Source of the DNA: Aureimonas sp. SK2
Lineage (GTDB): Bacteria; Pseudomonadota; Alphaproteobacteria; Rhizobiales; Rhizobiaceae
Reading direction: 5' to 3'
NCBI RefSeq assembly: GCF_029813115.1
Contig: NZ_JAPZDS010000001.1
Coordinates: 124,001 to 188,000, forward strand
Length of the DNA stretch: 64,000 nt
The translations under genes were made by a program, and so were the position numbers. Below, one piece after another: positions 43,294-57,426 of the stretch (position 1 is its first letter; each line of letters begins with the position of its first letter). Under the pieces are notes generated by a model. That model saw only the letters and a list, made by a program, of their open reading frames with translations. It did no database searches and had not been told where the DNA came from.

Positions 43294-43566
43294 CTAGAAC
43301 GGCATGGCTGGCACGGCTCGAAGGGCCATCAGGCGGCGGACCGCGATGTGGCGATTGAGGTCGTAGCCGGGGTCGCCGCTCCGCGCCCTGCGCCGAAGGC
43401 GGGCATCCTCCGCCGCCAACGCCTTCCATGCCTCAATGGAATAGGGGTTCGCGCCGGCGGCCGCGGTGTCGGGTGTCAGATGCCGCCGCAGCCCTTCGCC
43501 GAAGCGACGCACCTCCTGTCGGAGGCGTTTCTCGAATCGCAGGATCGCTTCGTCGCTCGGATGCAT
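43294..43566 (-). CDS. Hypothetical protein, 90 residues
   Basis: Very basic, helical-looking protein with no recognised motif (RFEKRLRQEVRRFGEGLRRH near the start, RHIAVRRLMALRAVPAMPF at the end). Codon third positions are strongly G/C, so it is probably real. It converges with the TetR gene with a one-base gap and diverges from the GafY-like gene. Confidence 0.6.
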   Translation of the reverse strand: MHPSDEAILRFEKRLRQEVRRFGEGLRRHLTPDTAAAGANPYSIEAWKALAAEDARLRRRARSGDPGYDLNRHIAVRRLMALRAVPAMPF

Positions 43567-43770
43567 GTTGAAAATCCACGTTGAAGCCGCAGCTTCGACG
43601 CCGCCGCTGCCGCGTGGACTGAATTCCTAGAGCCGGCTGTGGATTCCGGGGATATCTGACGTGCGAGGTCAGCCGTCTCGGGCTTTGCGAACGGTGGCGT
43701 TAAAGAAAATATTCCTACACCCGTTCCGGCCTTGTTAGCGTTCGCTCATCGCAAGCCACGGAGTCCCGTC
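43567..43770. promoter_or_regulatory. Promoter region upstream of the GafY-like gene
   Basis: 204 bases. It carries an AT-rich patch (GTTAAAGAAAATATTCC around 43700) suitable for a promoter and two GANTC sites, GATTC at 43642-43646 and GAGTC at 43761-43765, the second just before the start codon. Methylation by a CcrM-type enzyme could therefore link this promoter to the cell cycle; that is inference. Confidence 0.45.
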
Positions 43771-44175
43771 ATGTCCCCCCGTTTCGACCGAGCCACTGTC
43801 GCCCATCTCCCTCCGCCCGCCGGCCGCGGCAACTTGGGCGGACAGGGGCGGCTCCAGTGCCGTGTCGCGATCGATATCGTTTCGGCGTTCCTGGGCGTGC
43901 CGGCCGCCGACATCCTGTCCGAGCGGCGCGCGCAGGCACCCATCGCCCGTGCACGGCATGTCGCGATGTATCTTGCCCATGTCAGCTTCCAGCTTTCGCT
44001 GAACGCGGTGGCGAACGGCTTCGGGCGCGATCGCAGCAGCGTGTCCTACGGGGTCGCGCGGGTCGAAGACGGGCGCGACGACCGCGCCTTCGACGCCATG
44101 CTCGGCCGGATGGAGGCGCTTGCCCTGTCCTGCCGCCGCCTGATGATCCCCGGCGCCGCCGACGAGGACTTCTGA
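43771..44175 (+). CDS. gafY: DnaA domain IV-like DNA-binding protein (GafY-like GTA activator)
   Basis: 134 residues. The core ARARHVAMYLAHVSFQLSLN, AVANGFGRDRSSVSYGVARV matches the C-terminal DnaA-box-binding domain (DnaA: R-x-AM-LA....S...IG..FGGRDHSTV). The ATPase domains of DnaA are absent. In Rhodobacter GafA, and in Caulobacter the pair GafY/GafZ, a DnaA-like HTH protein binds the GTA promoter. The DUF6456 partner three bases downstream supports GafY here. The alternative is an unrelated HTH regulator. Start ATG 43771. Confidence 0.72.
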   Translation: MSPRFDRATVAHLPPPAGRGNLGGQGRLQCRVAIDIVSAFLGVPAADILSERRAQAPIARARHVAMYLAHVSFQLSLNAVANGFGRDRSSVSYGVARVEDGRDDRAFDAMLGRMEALALSCRRLMIPGAADEDF

Positions 44176-44178
44176 CCG

Positions 44179-44631
44179 ATGGCGGCGAGCGACGAATCAC
44201 CGCTCACCCGGCTTGCATCCCGCAAGGGCACCGACGGAAAGCCGTACCTTTCCGCACCCGAAGTGGCGGCAGGCGAGCGTCTGCGGATCGACTTCACCCG
44301 CGGGGGCCTCAGCCCCAGCGTCACCCAGCGCTGGGACGACGCGCCGCGCACAGGCGGGCGGGCAGGGCCGACCGACCTGTCGGACGCGGTTCTGGATTGC
44401 CGGCGTCGGGTGGAACTGGCGCTGAAGGCGGTCGGCCCGGAACTGTCAGGCGTTCTGCTCGACGTCTGCTGCTTCCTGAAGGGGACCGAGCGGGTCGAGG
44501 CCGAACGGCAGTGGCCGGCGCGGTCGGCCAAGCTGATGCTGAAGGCCGGCCTTTCGGCCCTCGCCCGGCACTACGGGCTGGTGCACGAAGCGGAGGCGGG
44601 GCGCGGAGCGATCCGCGCCTGGAAGGGCTGA
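44179..44631 (+). CDS. gafZ: DUF6456-domain protein (GafZ-like GTA activator/anti-terminator)
   Basis: 150 residues. The DUF6456 core is visible: LSAPEVAAGERLRIDFTRGG, LSPSVTQRWD, AVLDCRRRVELALKAVGPEL, GVLLDVCCFLKGTERVEAER, WPARSAKLMLKAGLSALARH. This sigma/omega-related domain forms the C-terminal half of Rhodobacter GafA. In Caulobacter the separate GafZ protein contacts RNA polymerase with GafY and lets it pass terminators in the GTA cluster. Three bases separate it from the GafY-like gene, so they are co-translated. Confidence 0.75.
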   Translation: MAASDESPLTRLASRKGTDGKPYLSAPEVAAGERLRIDFTRGGLSPSVTQRWDDAPRTGGRAGPTDLSDAVLDCRRRVELALKAVGPELSGVLLDVCCFLKGTERVEAERQWPARSAKLMLKAGLSALARHYGLVHEAEAGRGAIRAWKG

Positions 44632-44635
44632 CTGG

Positions 44636-45058
44636 TCAGGCGGCTTCCATCGCGGCACGGGCGTCGGCCTGGATGCGCCGGACCATGGAGCGAAGGCCGT
44701 TGGAGCGCTGCGGGGTCAGGTGATCCTGGAGGCCGATGCGCCCGAAGAGGGCTTCGGCGTCGAGCGTCAGAATCTCCGGCGCCGTGCGCCCGGAGTAGAG
44801 CGAGAGCGCGACGGCGACGAGGCCCTTCACGATATGCGCGTCGGACTGGCCGGCAAAGGTGACGTGCGGAGGCGAGGCGTCGTCGGTCCGGCTGGTAAGC
44901 CAGACCTGGCTGACGCAGCCGGGCACCTTGGTCTGCTCGTTGCGATCCGCCTCCGGCATGTCCGGAAGTTCGCGTCCGAGTTCGATCAGGTAGCGGTAGC
45001 GGTCTTCCCAATCGTCGAGAAGCTCGAAGTCGGAGACGATCTCGTCGATGTCGCGCAT
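44636..45058 (-). CDS. sufE: SufE-family sulfur acceptor
   Basis: 140 residues. SufE accepts persulfide from SufS and passes it to the SufBCD scaffold for Fe-S cluster assembly. Motifs: WEDRYRYLIELGRELPDMPE, VPGCVSQVWL with the active Cys48, and DAHIVKGLVAVALSLYSGRT. Other suf genes are not adjacent. It converges with the GafZ-like gene. Confidence 0.93.
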   Translation of the reverse strand: MRDIDEIVSDFELLDDWEDRYRYLIELGRELPDMPEADRNEQTKVPGCVSQVWLTSRTDDASPPHVTFAGQSDAHIVKGLVAVALSLYSGRTAPEILTLDAEALFGRIGLQDHLTPQRSNGLRSMVRRIQADARAAMEAA

Positions 45059-45926: not shown

Positions 45927-47645
45927 ATGGCGCATACGCGAAACAGCCGGGAAACCGGACCATCGACCGGCTTCTGGAGCGGTGTCGGCCAAGGGCTCGA
46001 CCGCGTGTCGGAAACGGTCGGCGCTTCGGTCGGGACGCCGGGCATGCGCCGCAACGGCCGGCTGGCCGCCGGCCTGATCGGCGCGAGTCTTCTGGCCGCC
46101 GTCCTGTCGCCCCTCGCGCTGGTCGTGCCGGGCGGCGCCGCCGCCCTGCCGGTTCTGCTCGGCACGGCCGTGGCGTTGCTCGCGCTCGCGAGCGCGCTGG
46201 CCGCCGGCGCGGAACTCGACCTCGTGCTGGTCGGCCTCCACCTCGTCGCCTCCGTGGTGCTCGGTCTCGTGGCGATCGCGCTGGACAGCCTGTGGCCGCT
46301 GGTCCTGGTGGCCGTCGGCCCGATCGAGGCCTGGAGCGCCGGCGCCGGCGTGCGTGCGCGGCTGATGGCACCCGCGGTTCTTGCCGCGATCGGCCTGACG
46401 GGGTTCCTGTCTCTCCACGGCATGGGGCCGGCGGGGCAGGGGCTGGCCGGATACACGCTCGCCCTGCCGCTCTGCGCGGCCTATGCCACCTTCGTCGCCT
46501 GCCGCGCCGTCTTCGGCGCGCGGGCCGAAGGGGCGGCCGACGGCGAAATCCTGGCGACGCTCGACGTGGACGGGATGACCGTGCCGCACGGCGGTGCCGC
46601 GTCCCAGGCCTTCGTGCACCGGCTCCACCTTCTCGACCGCGTGGCGTTCCTGCGCGCCCTCGACGACCTGCGCGCCGGCGCGCCGACCCGATCGCTGTCG
46701 CTTCGGCTGCGGGTGGACGGCGAGACCTTCCGCGCGGCGGACCTGCTGATCGAGCCGGTTCGTGGCAAGACGGGCGCTCTGGAGGCGATCCTGGTGCGCG
46801 AAACCCAGAGTTCCGGCGCTCCGTCCGGCGAAGGGCAGACGGACGCAGGCCGTCAGGCCGCCTTCATCGCGACCGTCTCGCACGAGCTGCGCACGCCCCT
46901 CAACGCGATCGTCGGCTTTGCCGACATGCTGGACCAGGAACTGTGCGGCCGCCTGACGGACCCCCGCCAGAAGGAGTATGTCGGGCTGATCCGCCGGTCG
47001 AGCGAGCACCTGCTCGGCGTGGTCAATGGGCTTCTCGACATGTCCAAGATCGAGGCCGGACGCTACGAGCTGCAGCTCGAGGCATTCTCGCCGGCCGAGA
47101 TCGTCGCGGCGTCGGCCGAGATGGTGCAGGGCCTGGCCGAGCGGAAAGGGCTCCGGCTCACGGTCCACGCGCCCGACACGGCCGGAACGCTCATAGCGGA
47201 TCGTCACGCCTGCCGGCAGATCCTCGTCAACCTGCTTTGCAACGCGGTGAAGTTCACGGATCGCGGAACGGTCTGCCTGACCGTGGTCCAAGACCCCGAC
47301 TTCCTGACCTTCACGGTCAGCGACACGGGCATCGGCATCGCGCAGGAGGACATCGCGCGCCTCGCGCAGCCCTTCGTCCAGCTTTCCCAGGGCGCCTCGC
47401 GGCGCTACGAGGGAACCGGGCTCGGCCTGTCGCTCGTGAAGGGGCTTGCCGAACTCCACCACGGCAGCCTCCACATCCGTAGCCAGCCGGAGCGCGGCAC
47501 CACCGTCACCGTCCGTATTCCGACCGACTGCGCCGAACGGATCCAGGCCGCCCGAACCCATTCCGACAATATCGTAGCGTTGACCGATGCCCGCAAGAAA
47601 ACCAGCCTCCTCCGCCAAGATGCGCAAGCCCTCCGCACGGCGTGA
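45927..47645 (+). CDS. Sensor histidine kinase, DivJ/PleC-like
   Basis: 572 residues. Six transmembrane helices in the first 190 residues, a PAS-like linker (about 215-300), then HisKA with FIATVSHELRTPLNAIVGFA and HATPase blocks NLLCNAVKFTDRG, FTVSDTGIGI, GTGLGLSLVKGLAELHHGSL. The hydrophobic N-terminal sensor and the context with cell-cycle genes recall DivJ, PleC and PdhS kinases that act on DivK. The exact member cannot be told. It overlaps the next gene by up to 59 bases, so they form an operon. Confidence 0.85.
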   Translation: MAHTRNSRETGPSTGFWSGVGQGLDRVSETVGASVGTPGMRRNGRLAAGLIGASLLAAVLSPLALVVPGGAAALPVLLGTAVALLALASALAAGAELDLVLVGLHLVASVVLGLVAIALDSLWPLVLVAVGPIEAWSAGAGVRARLMAPAVLAAIGLTGFLSLHGMGPAGQGLAGYTLALPLCAAYATFVACRAVFGARAEGAADGEILATLDVDGMTVPHGGAASQAFVHRLHLLDRVAFLRALDDLRAGAPTRSLSLRLRVDGETFRAADLLIEPVRGKTGALEAILVRETQSSGAPSGEGQTDAGRQAAFIATVSHELRTPLNAIVGFADMLDQELCGRLTDPRQKEYVGLIRRSSEHLLGVVNGLLDMSKIEAGRYELQLEAFSPAEIVAASAEMVQGLAERKGLRLTVHAPDTAGTLIADRHACRQILVNLLCNAVKFTDRGTVCLTVVQDPDFLTFTVSDTGIGIAQEDIARLAQPFVQLSQGASRRYEGTGLGLSLVKGLAELHHGSLHIRSQPERGTTVTVRIPTDCAERIQAARTHSDNIVALTDARKKTSLLRQDAQALRTA

Positions 47646-48390
47646 CCCTGCCGGCGGTCTCGCCGGGCAGGTGGCGCTGCTGGCCGCCCGCGCGTCGCTG
47701 GCCGGACTGGCCGCCGGCGCGCGGATCGTCGCCGCGCGCCCGGCGTTGTTCGGCGGCATCGCGGTGTTCTCCATTTCGGCGGGTCTCGTCGCCGACAACG
47801 CGCTGAACCGGCAGGCCGGCCCGCACCGGCATCCCATGCTGGTGACGCGCGGCTTCGAGCCGCAGGCGCCGGCCGTCCGCCCCGTTCGCGAGGCGGCGGC
47901 CAAGCCCGCGCCGATCGGCAACGACCCCCGCATCCTCGCTTTTCCCCTCGTGCGCGAGGTGCAGTCGCTCCTCGCCGAACAGGGTTATTACTCGGCCGAG
48001 GTGGATGGGCGTGCGGGCCAGGCCACGGACCTCGCGATCCGCGCCTTCCAGAAGGATCGGGGCCTGCGCGTCGACGGCATGGCGACCCCGCTTCTCCTGA
48101 CGCAGATCCGCGCGGCGGGTCAGGTCGAGGAAATCGATCCGACGCAGGTGGCGAGCCTGGAGAGCCCGGACGTCGCGTCCGACGCGTCGGGCGGCGGCGG
48201 CAGCGAACTCGTGCGGCAGATCCAGGCGGGGCTGTCGGACGCCAAGGTCGCCGACCTTCGGGCGGACGGCATTCTCGGCGAGCGTACCAGGGCCGCGATC
48301 CGCACCTTCCAGGCATTGGAAAGCCTCGACGTGACCGGCGAACCCTCTCAGGAGGTGCTCGACCGTCTGCGCGCCATCGCGGCGCGCTGA
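47587..48390 (+). CDS. Membrane-anchored peptidoglycan-binding-domain protein
   Basis: 267 residues from ATG 47587; ATG 47620 gives 256 and less overlap. One transmembrane helix (ALFGGIAVFSISAGLVADNA) and two PG_binding_1-type repeats: VREVQSLLAEQGYYSAEVDG with QATDLAIRAFQKDRGLRVDG, and LVRQIQAGLSDAKVADLRAD with RTRAAIRTFQALESLDVTGE. It probably tethers to peptidoglycan in the periplasm. Its placement in the kinase operon suggests a link between cell wall and cell-cycle signalling, by inference. Confidence 0.85.
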   Translation: MPARKPASSAKMRKPSARRDPAGGLAGQVALLAARASLAGLAAGARIVAARPALFGGIAVFSISAGLVADNALNRQAGPHRHPMLVTRGFEPQAPAVRPVREAAAKPAPIGNDPRILAFPLVREVQSLLAEQGYYSAEVDGRAGQATDLAIRAFQKDRGLRVDGMATPLLLTQIRAAGQVEEIDPTQVASLESPDVASDASGGGGSELVRQIQAGLSDAKVADLRADGILGERTRAAIRTFQALESLDVTGEPSQEVLDRLRAIAAR

Positions 48391-53879: not shown

Positions 53880-54368
53880 ATGAACGAAACACCCTTCTGG
53901 ACGCGGAAAACGCTGGAGGAGATGACGGCGGAGGAGTGGGAGCGGCTGTGCGACGGCTGCGGCCGCTGCTGCCTGAACAAGCTCGAGGACTGGGATACGG
54001 GCGAGATCGTCTGGACCAATGTCGCCTGCCACATGCTGGACGGCCAGAGCTGCCGCTGCGCCGACTACGAGAACCGGCACGCGACCGTGCCGGACTGCGT
54101 CACCCTCAACCCCGAACTCGTGCGGTCCATCGCCTGGCTGCCGCCGACCTGCGGCTACCGCCTCGTGGCGGAAGGGCGGCCGCTCTACTGGTGGCACCAC
54201 CTCGTGTCGGGCGATCCGGACACGGTGCATGCGGCCGGCATTTCGGTGCGCGGGCGCACGGTAAGTGAGGAGGGCATGCAGCCGGAGGACTACGAGGACC
54301 ACCTGGCGGCATGGCCGGGCGAGGACCCCGAAGAGGGCGAGATGGGGGCGGATAGGAAAATCGTCTGA
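53880..54368 (+). CDS. YcgN-family cysteine-cluster protein (UPF0260)
   Basis: 162 residues. The N-terminal half shows the family cysteine cluster [20 protein letters not shown], then [40 protein letters not shown] and [20 protein letters not shown]. Likely binds metal or an Fe-S cluster; function unknown. Its stop lies about 17 bases before the presumed GTA promoter. Confidence 0.92.
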
Positions 54369-54384
54369 ATTAGGAAAATAGTCA

Positions 54385-54413
54385 TTGACAGCGTGACGGT
54401 GCCGCGATAGGTT
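54385..54413 (+). promoter_or_regulatory. Candidate promoter of the GTA cluster
   Basis: A perfect TTGACA (54385-54390), a 17-base spacer and TAGGTT (54408-54413) stand between YcgN and the first GTA gene. The weak -10 element would suit a promoter needing an activator such as GafY. Only visual evidence. Confidence 0.45.
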
Positions 54414-54440
54414 TAAGGCACAGTCGAATTGGTGCGCTTC

Positions 54441-54477
54441 AAGGGCGGTCGCTTCCCGAACGGGAACGGCCGCCCTT
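54441..54477 (+). terminator. Hairpin in the GTA leader
   Basis: AAGGGCGG and CCGCCCTT pair at the ends of an imperfect extended stem before the first GTA gene. It resembles an attenuator more than a full terminator because the T-run is short. Confidence 0.5.
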
Positions 54478-54498
54478 CGCGTTTCGGGGGATGGTCGC

Positions 54499-54879
54499 AT
54501 GGGGAAGCCGGACGAGACGCTGCTGTCGGAGCGCCTGTTCGCGGCGCTGACGGCAGAGGTCGGGGCGCTGGAGAAGCGGCCGCGGCGCGTGTCGGAGACG
54601 CCGGGCGAGCCGGTGCCGAAGAAGACGGCGGCGGAGCGCGCGGCGGAAGCCAAGGCGCGGGTCGAGGCGATCTCGCAGCTCACCCGCACGCTGGAGAAGC
54701 TTCTGGAACTGCGCCAGCTGGAGGCGCTGTCGCGCGAGACCGGGCGCCGCGAGGACGAGGCGGAGGCCGAGCACTTGCGAGCCGAGATGATGAAGCGCCT
54801 CAGGGCGATCGACGCGCGGCGGGACGGGGAGGCCGGACTGGTCGAGGCGGTCGCGTCGGGCGCCGGGGCACTCGGCTGA
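54499..54879 (+). CDS. GTA gp1, small-terminase-like protein
   Basis: 126 residues, highly charged and helical (AAEAKARVEAISQLTRTLEK, LLELRQLEALSRE). It stands where RcGTA gene g1 stands, ahead of the large terminase, and probably helps the terminase load DNA. Sequence conservation in this family is low, so the call relies on place and composition. Its stop overlaps the terL start (TGATG). Confidence 0.72.
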   Translation: MGKPDETLLSERLFAALTAEVGALEKRPRRVSETPGEPVPKKTAAERAAEAKARVEAISQLTRTLEKLLELRQLEALSRETGRREDEAEAEHLRAEMMKRLRAIDARRDGEAGLVEAVASGAGALG

Positions 54880-56171
54880 TGGACGGCGACTTCTGGACGG
54901 AGATCGAGCGGGAGCTGGAGGAGCGGCCGGCGCATGTGCTGCGGCGCGCGCTGCCGCCCTGGACAGCCTTCGCGCGGGCCGCACAGCTTCCGCCGCCGGG
55001 CGACTGGCGGCAATGGCTGCTGATCGGCGGGCGCGGCTCGGGCAAGACGCGGGCAGGCGCGGAATGGGTGCGGGCCATGGCGTTGGGCGAGGGGCCGCTG
55101 GCACGATGCGTCCACGGGCGCATCGCGCTGGTGGCCGAGACTCTGGGCGACGCGCGCGAGGTGATGGTGGAGGGCGAAAGCGGGCTGCGGTCGCTCGACT
55201 ACGCGACGCGGCCGGTTTTCGAGGCGTCGCGGCGGCGGCTGGTCTTCGCCAACGGCGCGGTGGCGCAGGTGTTCTCGTCGGAGGACCCCGACGCTCTGCG
55301 CGGCTATCAGTTCGACGCGGCCTGGGGCGACGAGCTCGGCAAGTGGACCCATGCCGACGGCTGCTTCGACAACCTGCAGCTGGCGCTGCGGCTGGGGGAA
55401 CAGCCGCGCATGGTGCTGACCACGACGCCGCGCGCGGTGCCGATCCTGAAGCGGCTCCTGGCGGAAGAGGGGACGGCCGTGACGCGGATGCGGACAGTCG
55501 AGAACGCCGGCAACCTCGCGGCCGGCTTCGTGGCGGCCATGGAGGCGCGCTACGGCGGCTCGCGGCTGGCGCGTCAGGAACTCGACGGCGAGATGATCGA
55601 GGCACGCGAGGACGCGCTGTTCGACCGGGCGGCGATCGATCGGCTGCGGGTGCGGGTCGCGCCCGAACTCCGGCGCATCGTCGTCGCGGTGGATCCGCCG
55701 GCCTCGTCCGGCCGGGCGTCCGACGCCTGCGGGATCGTGGCGGCGGGGCTGGCGGGGGACGGCACGATCTACGTGATCGCCGATCGGAGCCGGCGCGGGC
55801 TGAAGCCGCCGGAATGGGCGCAGGCGGCCGTTTCGCTCTATCGCGAACTCGAAGCCGACCGGATCGTCGCCGAGGTGAACCAGTGCGGCGAGATGGTGGA
55901 GGCAGTCCTGCGGGCGGTGGCGCCGGACGTGCCCGTCTCTGCCGTGCGGGCCAGCCGAGGCAAGTGGGTGCGGGCGGAGCCCGTGGCCGCGCTCTACGAA
56001 CAGGGGCGCGTGCGGCACGCCGGCAGCTTCGCCGACCTCGAGGACGAGCTGTGCGACTTCGGGCCGGACGGCCTGTCCAACGGCCGCTCGCCGGACCGGC
56101 TCGACGCCATGGTCTGGGCGGTGACGGCGCTGAGCCGGCCGCAAGCCGAGCCGCGCATCCGGCGTCTGTAG
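54879..56171 (+). CDS. GTA gp2, large terminase (DNA packaging ATPase and nuclease)
   Basis: 430 residues. Walker A in LLIGGRGSGKTRAGAEWVRA, Walker B region AAWGDELGKW, then the RNase H-like nuclease part (VVAVDPPASSGRASDACGIV; VAEVNQCGEMVEAVLRAV; DRLDAMVWAVTAL). It drives headful packaging of host DNA into GTA particles. Typical of the rhizobial GTA terminase. Confidence 0.93.
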   Translation: MDGDFWTEIERELEERPAHVLRRALPPWTAFARAAQLPPPGDWRQWLLIGGRGSGKTRAGAEWVRAMALGEGPLARCVHGRIALVAETLGDAREVMVEGESGLRSLDYATRPVFEASRRRLVFANGAVAQVFSSEDPDALRGYQFDAAWGDELGKWTHADGCFDNLQLALRLGEQPRMVLTTTPRAVPILKRLLAEEGTAVTRMRTVENAGNLAAGFVAAMEARYGGSRLARQELDGEMIEAREDALFDRAAIDRLRVRVAPELRRIVVAVDPPASSGRASDACGIVAAGLAGDGTIYVIADRSRRGLKPPEWAQAAVSLYRELEADRIVAEVNQCGEMVEAVLRAVAPDVPVSAVRASRGKWVRAEPVAALYEQGRVRHAGSFADLEDELCDFGPDGLSNGRSPDRLDAMVWAVTALSRPQAEPRIRRL

Positions 56172-56211
56172 TTCCAGAGCTTTACATTCTTCCGTTCAAC
56201 GGAGACTTGAG

Positions 56212-57426
56212 ATGGGTTTGACGACGAGGCTGAGAGCCCTGGCGGGGCTGGCGCCTGCGCCGCCGGGCGCGCCGGAAGTGCGATCCGGGTCGGCCGGCGG
56301 GGCGCTGGTGTTTGCCGGGGCGAGCGACGAGGCTGACTGGACGGAGCGATCCTACGGGTCGCTGGCGCGGGCGGGCTTCATGCGCAACCCGCTGGTCTAT
56401 CGCTGCGTCCGGCTGATCGCTGAGACGACGGCAGCGGTGCCCTTCGTGCTCTATGAGGGGCGGCGCGAGGTGGAGGCGCACGCGATCCTCGATCTCCTGC
56501 GCCAGCCGAACGGTTTGCAGGACGGGGCGGGACTGGTGGAGACACTGGTCGGACACTTGCTCCTTTCGGGCGCGGCGCATGTCGAGGCGAGCGTGCTCGA
56601 CGGCGTGCCGCGCCAGATCCATGCGCTGCGGCCGGACCAGGTCCGCACGGTTTCTTCGGCCGACGGCTGGCCGGAGGCGTTGGAGCATCGGGTCGGCGGG
56701 CGGGTGCGGCGCATTCCGCTGGACGGGGACGGTGGGCGGCCGGCGCGGGTGCTGGCGATCCGCCTGTTCCACCCCTTGAGCGAAGCCGACGGGTTCGCGC
56801 CCGTCGGTGCGGCGCAGACGGCGCTCGACCTGCACAACGCGGCGACGCGCTGGAACAAGGCGCTGCTCGACAATTCCGCCCGGCCGTCCGGCGCGCTGGT
56901 CTATCAGCCCGGTGACGGCGGCAACCTGTCGGGCGACCAGTTCGAGCGGCTGAAGACGGAGCTGGAAAGCGGCTATGCGGGCGCGGCGCGCGCCGGGCGG
57001 CCGATGCTGCTCGAAGGCGGTCTCGACTGGAAGGCGATGGCGCTCTCCCCGCGCGACATGGATTTCATGGAAGCGCGCAACGGGGCGGCGCGGGACGTCG
57101 CGATCGCCTTCGGCGTGCCACCCATGCTGCTCGGCATCCCGGGCGACAACACCTATGCCAATTACGCCGAGGCCAACCGCGCACTGATCCGGCTGACAGT
57201 GCTGCCGCTGGTGGCGCGGCTGTCGGCGGCGCTCGGCAACTGGCTGGGCGGGTTCTTCGACGGCGAGGCGGGGCTGCGGCTCGGCTTCGACGCGGACCGG
57301 ATCGAAGGCCTGTCGGTCGAGCGCGAAGCGCTCTGGGCGCGGCTCGGGGCGGCAGGTTTCCTCGACGACGACGAGAAGCGCGAGGCCGTAGGCTACGGCC
57401 CGCGTGCTTCGCGAACACGGGGGTGA
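56212..57426 (+). CDS. GTA gp3, HK97-type portal protein
   Basis: 404 residues. Portal features: NPLVYRCVRLIAETTAAVPF near residue 60, LRQPNGLQDGAGLVETLVGH, FHPLSEADGFAPVGAAQTAL, and AFGVPPMLLGIPGDNTYANY. It forms the dodecameric ring through which DNA enters the capsid. GGAG precedes ATG. Confidence 0.94.
   Translation: MGLTTRLRALAGLAPAPPGAPEVRSGSAGGALVFAGASDEADWTERSYGSLARAGFMRNPLVYRCVRLIAETTAAVPFVLYEGRREVEAHAILDLLRQPNGLQDGAGLVETLVGHLLLSGAAHVEASVLDGVPRQIHALRPDQVRTVSSADGWPEALEHRVGGRVRRIPLDGDGGRPARVLAIRLFHPLSEADGFAPVGAAQTALDLHNAATRWNKALLDNSARPSGALVYQPGDGGNLSGDQFERLKTELESGYAGAARAGRPMLLEGGLDWKAMALSPRDMDFMEARNGAARDVAIAFGVPPMLLGIPGDNTYANYAEANRALIRLTVLPLVARLSAALGNWLGGFFDGEAGLRLGFDADRIEGLSVEREALWARLGAAGFLDDDEKREAVGYGPRASRTRG

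Follow-up and report, generated by a model that had tools for sequence, protein, structure and literature searches.

A probable GafY/GafZ-type activator gene pair upstream of an RcGTA-type gene cluster in Aureimonas sp. SK2

In Caulobacter, GafY and GafZ are encoded in one operon, are homologous to the two ends of Rhodobacter capsulatus GafA and are described as necessary and jointly sufficient for GTA production, whereby RogA represses gafYZ at GGAA-N4-TTCC repeats (PMC9632790). GafY contacts domains 3-4 of RpoD, and GafZ is an antiterminator whose element sits between the -35 and -10 regions, which is likewise the place of the lambda Q element (PMC11150451). In Hyphomicrobiales gafA is split, mostly with a DnaA-like gene before it and with sufE after it, and the GafA matches of that study carry the annotation DUF6456 (PMC9638019). 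A gafA homologue is reported for 196 of the 208 genomes in PMC9765227. The two-gene activator is also described as needing IHF. Since Caulobacter GafY/GafZ and the split gafA of Hyphomicrobiales have already been published, the pair described in the following is a further case of a known kind.

The window, i.e., the whole stretch of DNA that was analysed, comprises 64,000 nucleotides of Aureimonas sp. SK2 (C1:124001-188000 of an assembly of 4.56 Mb in 89 contigs). A first-pass annotation had suggested that two small genes located three bases apart encode a stand-alone DnaA domain IV protein and a DUF6456 protein and correspond to GafY and GafZ. The spacing and coordinates were confirmed by the reading frames and by the 3-nt spacer CCG between the gafY stop and the gafZ start, and both genes are co-directional. 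The pair and its immediate surroundings contain the following features:

43294-43566, minus strand: divergent neighbour gene, 90 aa, weak DUF6477 match (E 0.0073, below the cut-off)
43704-43715, without assigned strand: RogA-type box AGAA-AATA-TTCC upstream of gafY, one mismatch to GGAA-N4-TTCC
43771-44175, plus strand: gafY-like gene, 134 aa, stop TGA at 44173-44175, modelled as DnaA domain IV alone (PF08299)
44179-44631, plus strand: gafZ-like gene, 150 aa, start ATG at 44179, DUF6456 only, without an N-terminal region
44636-45058, minus strand: sufE (PF02657, E 3.2e-46), which is also reported to follow split gafA in Hyphomicrobiales (PMC9638019)

A Pfam profile search yielded Bac_DnaA_C (PF08299, E 1.9e-14, residues 34-98) as the sole family of the gafY protein and DUF6456 (PF20057, E 8.9e-46, profile positions 4-135 of 136) as the sole family of the gafZ protein, which bears out both domain assignments; the core AMYLAHVSFQLSLN..FGRDRSSVSYG, which had been quoted for the first protein, is present in its translation. 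No AAA+ domain was found in the gafY protein by this search. The gafY structure model (pLDDT 84) agrees with DnaA domain IV, and the gafZ model may be sigma-region-4-like, with sigma region 4 in better rows of the comparison than the Q-type antiterminators. Within the assembly, DUF6456 has a single match and PF08299 has two, namely gafY and a 704-codon open frame on contig C4, which was taken as the true dnaA. Among the matches listed, the closest named relatives of the gafZ protein belong to Aureimonas (sp. AU22, 84% identity), followed by Aurantimonas and Consotaella. At 44173-44181 gafY and gafZ of this genome lie in one shared frame with a single TGA between them. Within the Aureimonas/Aurantimonas/Consotaella group the remaining 28 distinct loci all lack such a shared frame, and outside of it 9 of 85 loci have one; on this basis, stop-codon readthrough leading to a GafA-like fusion was rejected.

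The likeness to the Caulobacter and R. capsulatus proteins is drawn from families and published descriptions. Compared to GafY/GafZ of Caulobacter crescentus (CCNA_01111/CCNA_01112), as described in print, the locus is alike in gene order, in its RogA-type box and in having no omega-binding central region, and a putative dyad of the GafZ type, imperfect in the window, occupies the -35/-10 spacer of the GTA promoter. The gap between pair and cluster amounts to about 10 kb here, whereas the locus numbers in Caulobacter are far apart. With R. capsulatus GafA (rcc01865) the pair shares the two terminal domains, and a divergent neighbour gene is present in both; however, R. capsulatus GafA is one polypeptide, whereas two genes with a TGA between them are found here. 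In the course of this comparison no CtrA site was recognised by eye in the Aureimonas locus. The order of DnaA-like gene, gafA C-terminal gene and sufE is the same as described for the split gafA of Hyphomicrobiales, whose proteins are mostly 22-32 kDa in size, with a MucR or HTH gene upstream (PMC9638019). Unlike these, GafZ has 150 aa here and the upstream gene is DUF6477-like. GafZ shows no sequence match to the phage Q-type antiterminators Q21 and lambda Q, and its model compared to the Q21 fold gives a Z in the range that a common helical arrangement alone can give.

A contact of the pair with the omega subunit of RNA polymerase had also been suggested. The omega-binding region, as described for Rhodobacter GafA (PMC9638019), is without a counterpart in this locus, and alignment and length comparison showed that a matching region is missing from GafZ throughout the Aureimonas/Aurantimonas/Consotaella group. 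The sequence before the DUF6456 domain comprises at least 280 nt in 55 of 85 distinct loci outside this group and at most 44 nt in all 29 inside. Since GafZ consists here of the DUF6456 domain alone, it should act without the omega contact of Rhodobacter GafA. The group-wide absence of this region was not found in print.

The gene lying divergently beside gafA of R. capsulatus is rcc01866, a mutant of which is described to make immature particles without lysis (PMC9638019), and it is possible that the gene at 43294-43566 is its counterpart. The class search for DUF6477 (E 0.05) gave matches in 15 of 190 genomes and no match in the genome of SK2 itself. In G401, G270, G305, and G042 the DUF6477 gene is divergent and located 0.6-1.3 kb from the DUF6456 domain. 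We did not find such a putative DUF6477-like gene divergent to gafYZ reported in print.

Downstream of the pair, the window contains GTA structural genes together with a predicted control region:

54353-54361, plus strand: upstream extra copy of TAGGAAAAT
54371-54384, plus strand: box abutting the GTA -35, GGAA-AATA-GTCA here and GGAA-N4-NTCC in most genomes of the order
54385-54413, plus strand: predicted GTA promoter with -35 TTGACA (54385-54390), 17-base spacer and -10 TAGGTT (54408-54413)
54390-54400, plus strand: imperfect dyad AGCGTGACGGT between -35 and -10, the place of the Caulobacter GafZ element as described in PMC11150451
54429-64000, plus strand: RcGTA-type structural cluster, running past the window end to g15 (GTA_TIM, Rcc01698_C) in L002
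54441-54477, plus strand: leader hairpin between promoter and terS, leader z -3.3, covariation in 14 genus sequences
54499-54879, plus strand: terS candidate, 126 aa, at a conserved position

The listed terL frame starts at 54429, whereby the true start is probably later. The terS candidate matches no family above the cut-off and was assigned by position only. It is followed by terL, portal, DUF6107, S78 protease, capsid, head completion, gp17, and tail tube genes and, further downstream in the window, by GTA gp10 (PF11836), a tape-measure-like protein and DUF2460. Beyond the window there are a g13-like protein, an NlpC/P60-like stretch (E 0.00059, below the cut-off) and a 1291-aa GTA_TIM/Rcc01698_C protein. 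With its ordered head-tail genes and the GTA-specific gp10 and g15, the cluster of about 14 kb is of the RcGTA type. The distance of about 10 kb between pair and GTA genes given by the first-pass annotation is correct, as the terS-like ORF at 54499 begins 9.87 kb past the second stop. It had further been proposed that the locus is a self-contained GTA unit. This is not supported, since the space between pair and cluster is occupied by host-type genes (sufE, a DUF5330 gene, a histidine kinase, DUF1254/DUF1214 genes, a penicillin-binding protein and others). Because the same block recurs across the order, the nearness of pair and cluster represents inherited synteny. A peptidoglycan-binding protein encoded in this conserved block (47587-48390, plus strand) has endolysin-type PHROG matches (best E 7.2e-16).

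In a sample of 249 genomes of the order, relatives included, DUF6456 and GTA gp10 occur together in 156, DUF6456 alone in 45, gp10 alone in 7 and neither in 41. As only 7 of 163 gp10 genomes are without DUF6456, the tie of this family to GTAs is strong. Linkage was counted for those 127 of the 156 genomes having both families for which both positions are listed. The two families are on one contig in 66 and on different contigs in 61 of them, many being drafts. Among the 66, the distance is within 80 kb in 57 and larger in 9; in 48 of the 57 gp10 lies on the same strand, 12.8-49 kb downstream, and in 9 on the opposite strand. Considering genomes of at most two contigs (21 with both families), 12 of the 14 with both positions listed are within 80 kb, and the same applies to 20 of 34 genomes of at most ten contigs with listed positions. 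Outside of the order, both families are found in 15 genomes of the class, on different contigs in 4 and on one contig in 11, within 80 kb in 10 of the latter. Twenty loci of the order, which were picked because pair and cluster are close, were read in detail. Matches to gafZ, sufE, terL, and portal occur in that order in 20/20, gafY was detected by tblastn in 18, and the gap genes for DUF5330, kinase, PG-binding, DUF1491, DUF1254/1214, PBP, and CxxC are present to differing degree. Thus, the close position of pair and cluster is ordinary for the order and not special, and we infer that the two model species, in which they lie far apart, probably show a derived arrangement. No published statement on this linkage was found in the text passages and literature listings to which the search was confined.

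Between the upstream gene (stop at 54368) and the terS candidate, the genus conserves TAGGAAAATAGTCATTGACAGCGTGACGG...TAGGGTTC, and 13 other genus loci are identical at 24-28 positions to the 28-base window sequence. The -10 TAGGTT agrees with the consensus at 3 of 6 bases, and the GTA promoter was not reported when strict consensus promoters were scanned for. A first promoter matrix was built from 14 genus sequences and run on the 20 order loci, where the best match was upstream of terL in 17, 14 of them clear; L053, L057, and L064 were at background level and L056, L062, and L065 gave none. A second matrix was derived from 17 sequences, i.e., 3 from the genus and 14 from the first order set, and was applied to 20 held-out genomes of the order that had not been used before, 18 of them from families absent from the matrix. 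In 18 of the 20 the best match was on the plus strand and 0.68-2.2 kb before the terL domain, with scores of 23.7-65.6 for the held-out genomes compared to at most 11.8 in five block shuffles of each. The two genomes that were missed, L168 and L176, belong to a single family. Six further loci of the order yielded a match in place for L198, L202, and L206, a strong match not upstream of the terL match for L204 and none for L203 and L205. Among 14 loci from other orders L191 was clear, L188 and L194 were in place but weak, and 11 gave none. These data suggest that the region 54371-54413 is an order-wide predicted GTA promoter, which was not found in print.

In many genomes of the order, the arms of the spacer dyad change together (AGCG..CGCT, ACCG..CGGT) and reach up to 7 bp. 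The promoter core precedes the first gene by 86-128 nt, close to the position (76-125 nt ahead of the first GTA gene) that R. capsulatus GafA is described to bind (PMC6363796). The leader hairpin is strong and conserved, and a T-rich tail follows it in some genus members and not in the window. Among 49 leaders, 22 have a hairpin passing the chosen cut, compared to 21% of shuffles. The hairpin was rejected as a classical terminator and kept as a lead: the scan of 53900-56300 showed no terminator-like site, and the hairpin is clear at genus level only.

With one mismatch or none, GGAA-N4-TTCC was found upstream of gafY in 80 of 114 distinct loci, with 9.5 expected from shuffles, and the perfect box in 12 of 114, with 0.5 expected; as the loci are related, these ratios are not probabilities. 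A second candidate box with one mismatch is present here at about 43617-43628, and two RogA repeats are likewise described for Caulobacter gafYZ (PMC9632790). At its constant position ahead of the GTA -35, 14 of 21 and 5 of 14 promoters carry the box with one mismatch or none, whereby the window copy has two mismatches. A 19-base pattern, which was modelled on the GTA promoter and written with both regions already known, was searched genome-wide with at most two mismatches. It gave three sites, namely the GTA promoter (exact), the gafY upstream region at 43699-43717 on the minus strand (two mismatches), and a site between ORFs on contig C19 (two mismatches); the reversed pattern gave one match. 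According to the text of PMC9632790, Caulobacter RogA is found at gafYZ and one other promoter and not at the GTA promoter. A RogA-type box at the GTA promoter would therefore differ from Caulobacter, and its predicted presence at both the gafYZ and the GTA promoters was not found in print. A search for RogA in the SK2 genome by the S24 domain yielded five matches. One protein encoded elsewhere in the genome (L208), with helix-turn-helix plus S24, represents a RogA-type repressor candidate; by eye, its S24 part seems to keep the Ser and Lys that RogA reportedly lacks (PMC9632790). In the intergenic region, TGTGGATTC at 43638-43646 resembles a DnaA box, and by eye similar stretches are present in several genus members.

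DUF6456 is present in 21 of 21 genus genomes. From the 19 genus loci that are long enough, 14 have terL in place and 5 do not (L162-L166 from G500, G499, G495, G497, and G496, respectively). In these five, terL, portal and capsid are absent from the usual place and gafYZ is kept. In four of the five genomes there was no match to gp10, and the fifth has two gp10 matches on other contigs (E 3.1e-20 and 7e-4), compared to a best match of E 1.8e-26 or better in the other 15 genus genomes with gp10. A g8 relic is found in L162 (51% identity over 137 aa). In L150 (G506) terL and portal are in place, with no GTA gp10 match in the genome. Pairwise dN/dS of gafY and gafZ is 0.03-0.11 among L164-L166, like that of neighbour genes, and for L162 compared to L163 it is 0.29 for gafZ and saturated for gafY. 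By eye, L162 and L163 keep the gafY box with one mismatch, and in L164-L166 it is TGAA-N4-TTCA. Thus, genus members that lack the cluster keep gafYZ under purifying selection, which was not found in print, and something other than the GTA cluster seems to keep the pair.

It was considered whether the first gene is just an ordinary DnaA paralogue, or the pair a phage-type repressor, without a link to GTAs. Public annotation labels some close GafY relatives as 'chromosomal replication initiator DnaA', and for GafZ a phage family without known function gives a weak match (E 4.1e-5), which would fit; however, the first protein has neither an AAA+ match nor a PHROG match, dnaA is located separately, the DUF6456 partner is constant and the pair is syntenic with GTA genes, and on these grounds we rejected this explanation as very improbable. 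A different question is which protein reads the box common to the gafYZ and GTA promoters. It might be GafY, acting in activation and autoregulation, instead of a RogA-type repressor, since in the published account Caulobacter GafY binds both promoters and RogA only gafYZ and one other (PMC9632790), and since a contact of GafY with domains 3-4 of RpoD would suit a site beside the -35 (PMC11150451). The box is, however, a dyad (GGA-N6-TCC) that fits the RogA motif as published (PMC9632790), whereas a non-palindromic site is expected for DnaA domain IV, and the published GafY element has another sequence and lies about 115-123 bases upstream of the start (PMC11150451). Assignment of the box to GafY is a possibility of real but minority weight.

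Because gafYZ is kept under purifying selection without the cluster, GTA activation may not be its sole role. The pair might have a second conserved role, either at other targets or in replication, whereby control of the GTA would be one output among others. HdaB is the name under which the Caulobacter protein was once proposed to act in replication (cited in PMC9632790). Besides the five genus loci and the low dN/dS in three of them, 45 of 201 genomes of the order with DUF6456 have no gp10 match, which speaks in favour of such a role. On the other hand, the genome-wide search covered gp10 only and may have overlooked divergent GTA genes elsewhere, the HdaB effects are attributed to GTA production by the authors of PMC9632790, and the tie of DUF6456 to gp10 across the order is strong, as given above. 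We regard a second role as a possibility of real but minority weight.

Taken together, the families, gene order, fold, co-occurrence with GTA genes and promoter elements support well the GafY/GafZ-type identity proposed by the first-pass annotation, and the best explanation (probability roughly 0.87) is that the pair is gafYZ, a two-gene GTA activator with predicted roles at the GTA and gafYZ promoters. The predicted task of GafY, a DnaA domain IV alone, is to attach to promoter DNA and to aid sigma-70 RNA polymerase, with polymerase contacts that we infer. The predicted loading site of GafZ is the dyad in the -35/-10 spacer of the GTA promoter (54385-54413), from where GafZ would, by antitermination, allow transcription across the roughly 14-kb cluster, as was demonstrated for Caulobacter. 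A RogA-type repressor is predicted to hold gafYZ down via the GGAA-N4-TTCC box, and a closely similar box, putatively assigned to the same kind of protein, abuts the -35 of the GTA promoter itself. Against this explanation stand the persistence of gafYZ without the cluster, the imperfect dyad in the window, recovery of the promoter in 1 of 14 other-order loci, the -10 that agrees with the consensus at 3 of 6 bases, the negative strict scan, and the fact that RogA was not identified among the five S24 matches. A more far-reaching reading for Hyphomicrobiales, likelier to fail than to hold as a whole, would be that a RogA-type dimer sits directly on both locks, one at the promoter of gafYZ and one at the -35 of the promoter that drives the GTA cluster, that a minimal GafZ loads at the dyad and takes polymerase through the hairpin, that a 47-base signature is order-wide, that the linkage is class-ancestral, and that gafYZ has a second function.

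So far, GTA regulation has been worked out in detail in two model species. A promoter that is conserved and has recognisable sub-elements would allow GTA control to be tested at sequence level across the whole order, and it may help to separate kept GTAs from prophage remnants. The annotation of GafY relatives as 'chromosomal replication initiator DnaA' would be corrected. Genus members that lack the cluster and have a selected gafYZ offer a direct way to ask about roles besides the GTA. If the more far-reaching reading is true, the 47-base promoter signature would be an order-wide mark of a regulated GTA, and a further gafYZ function would keep the pair selected after loss of the cluster.
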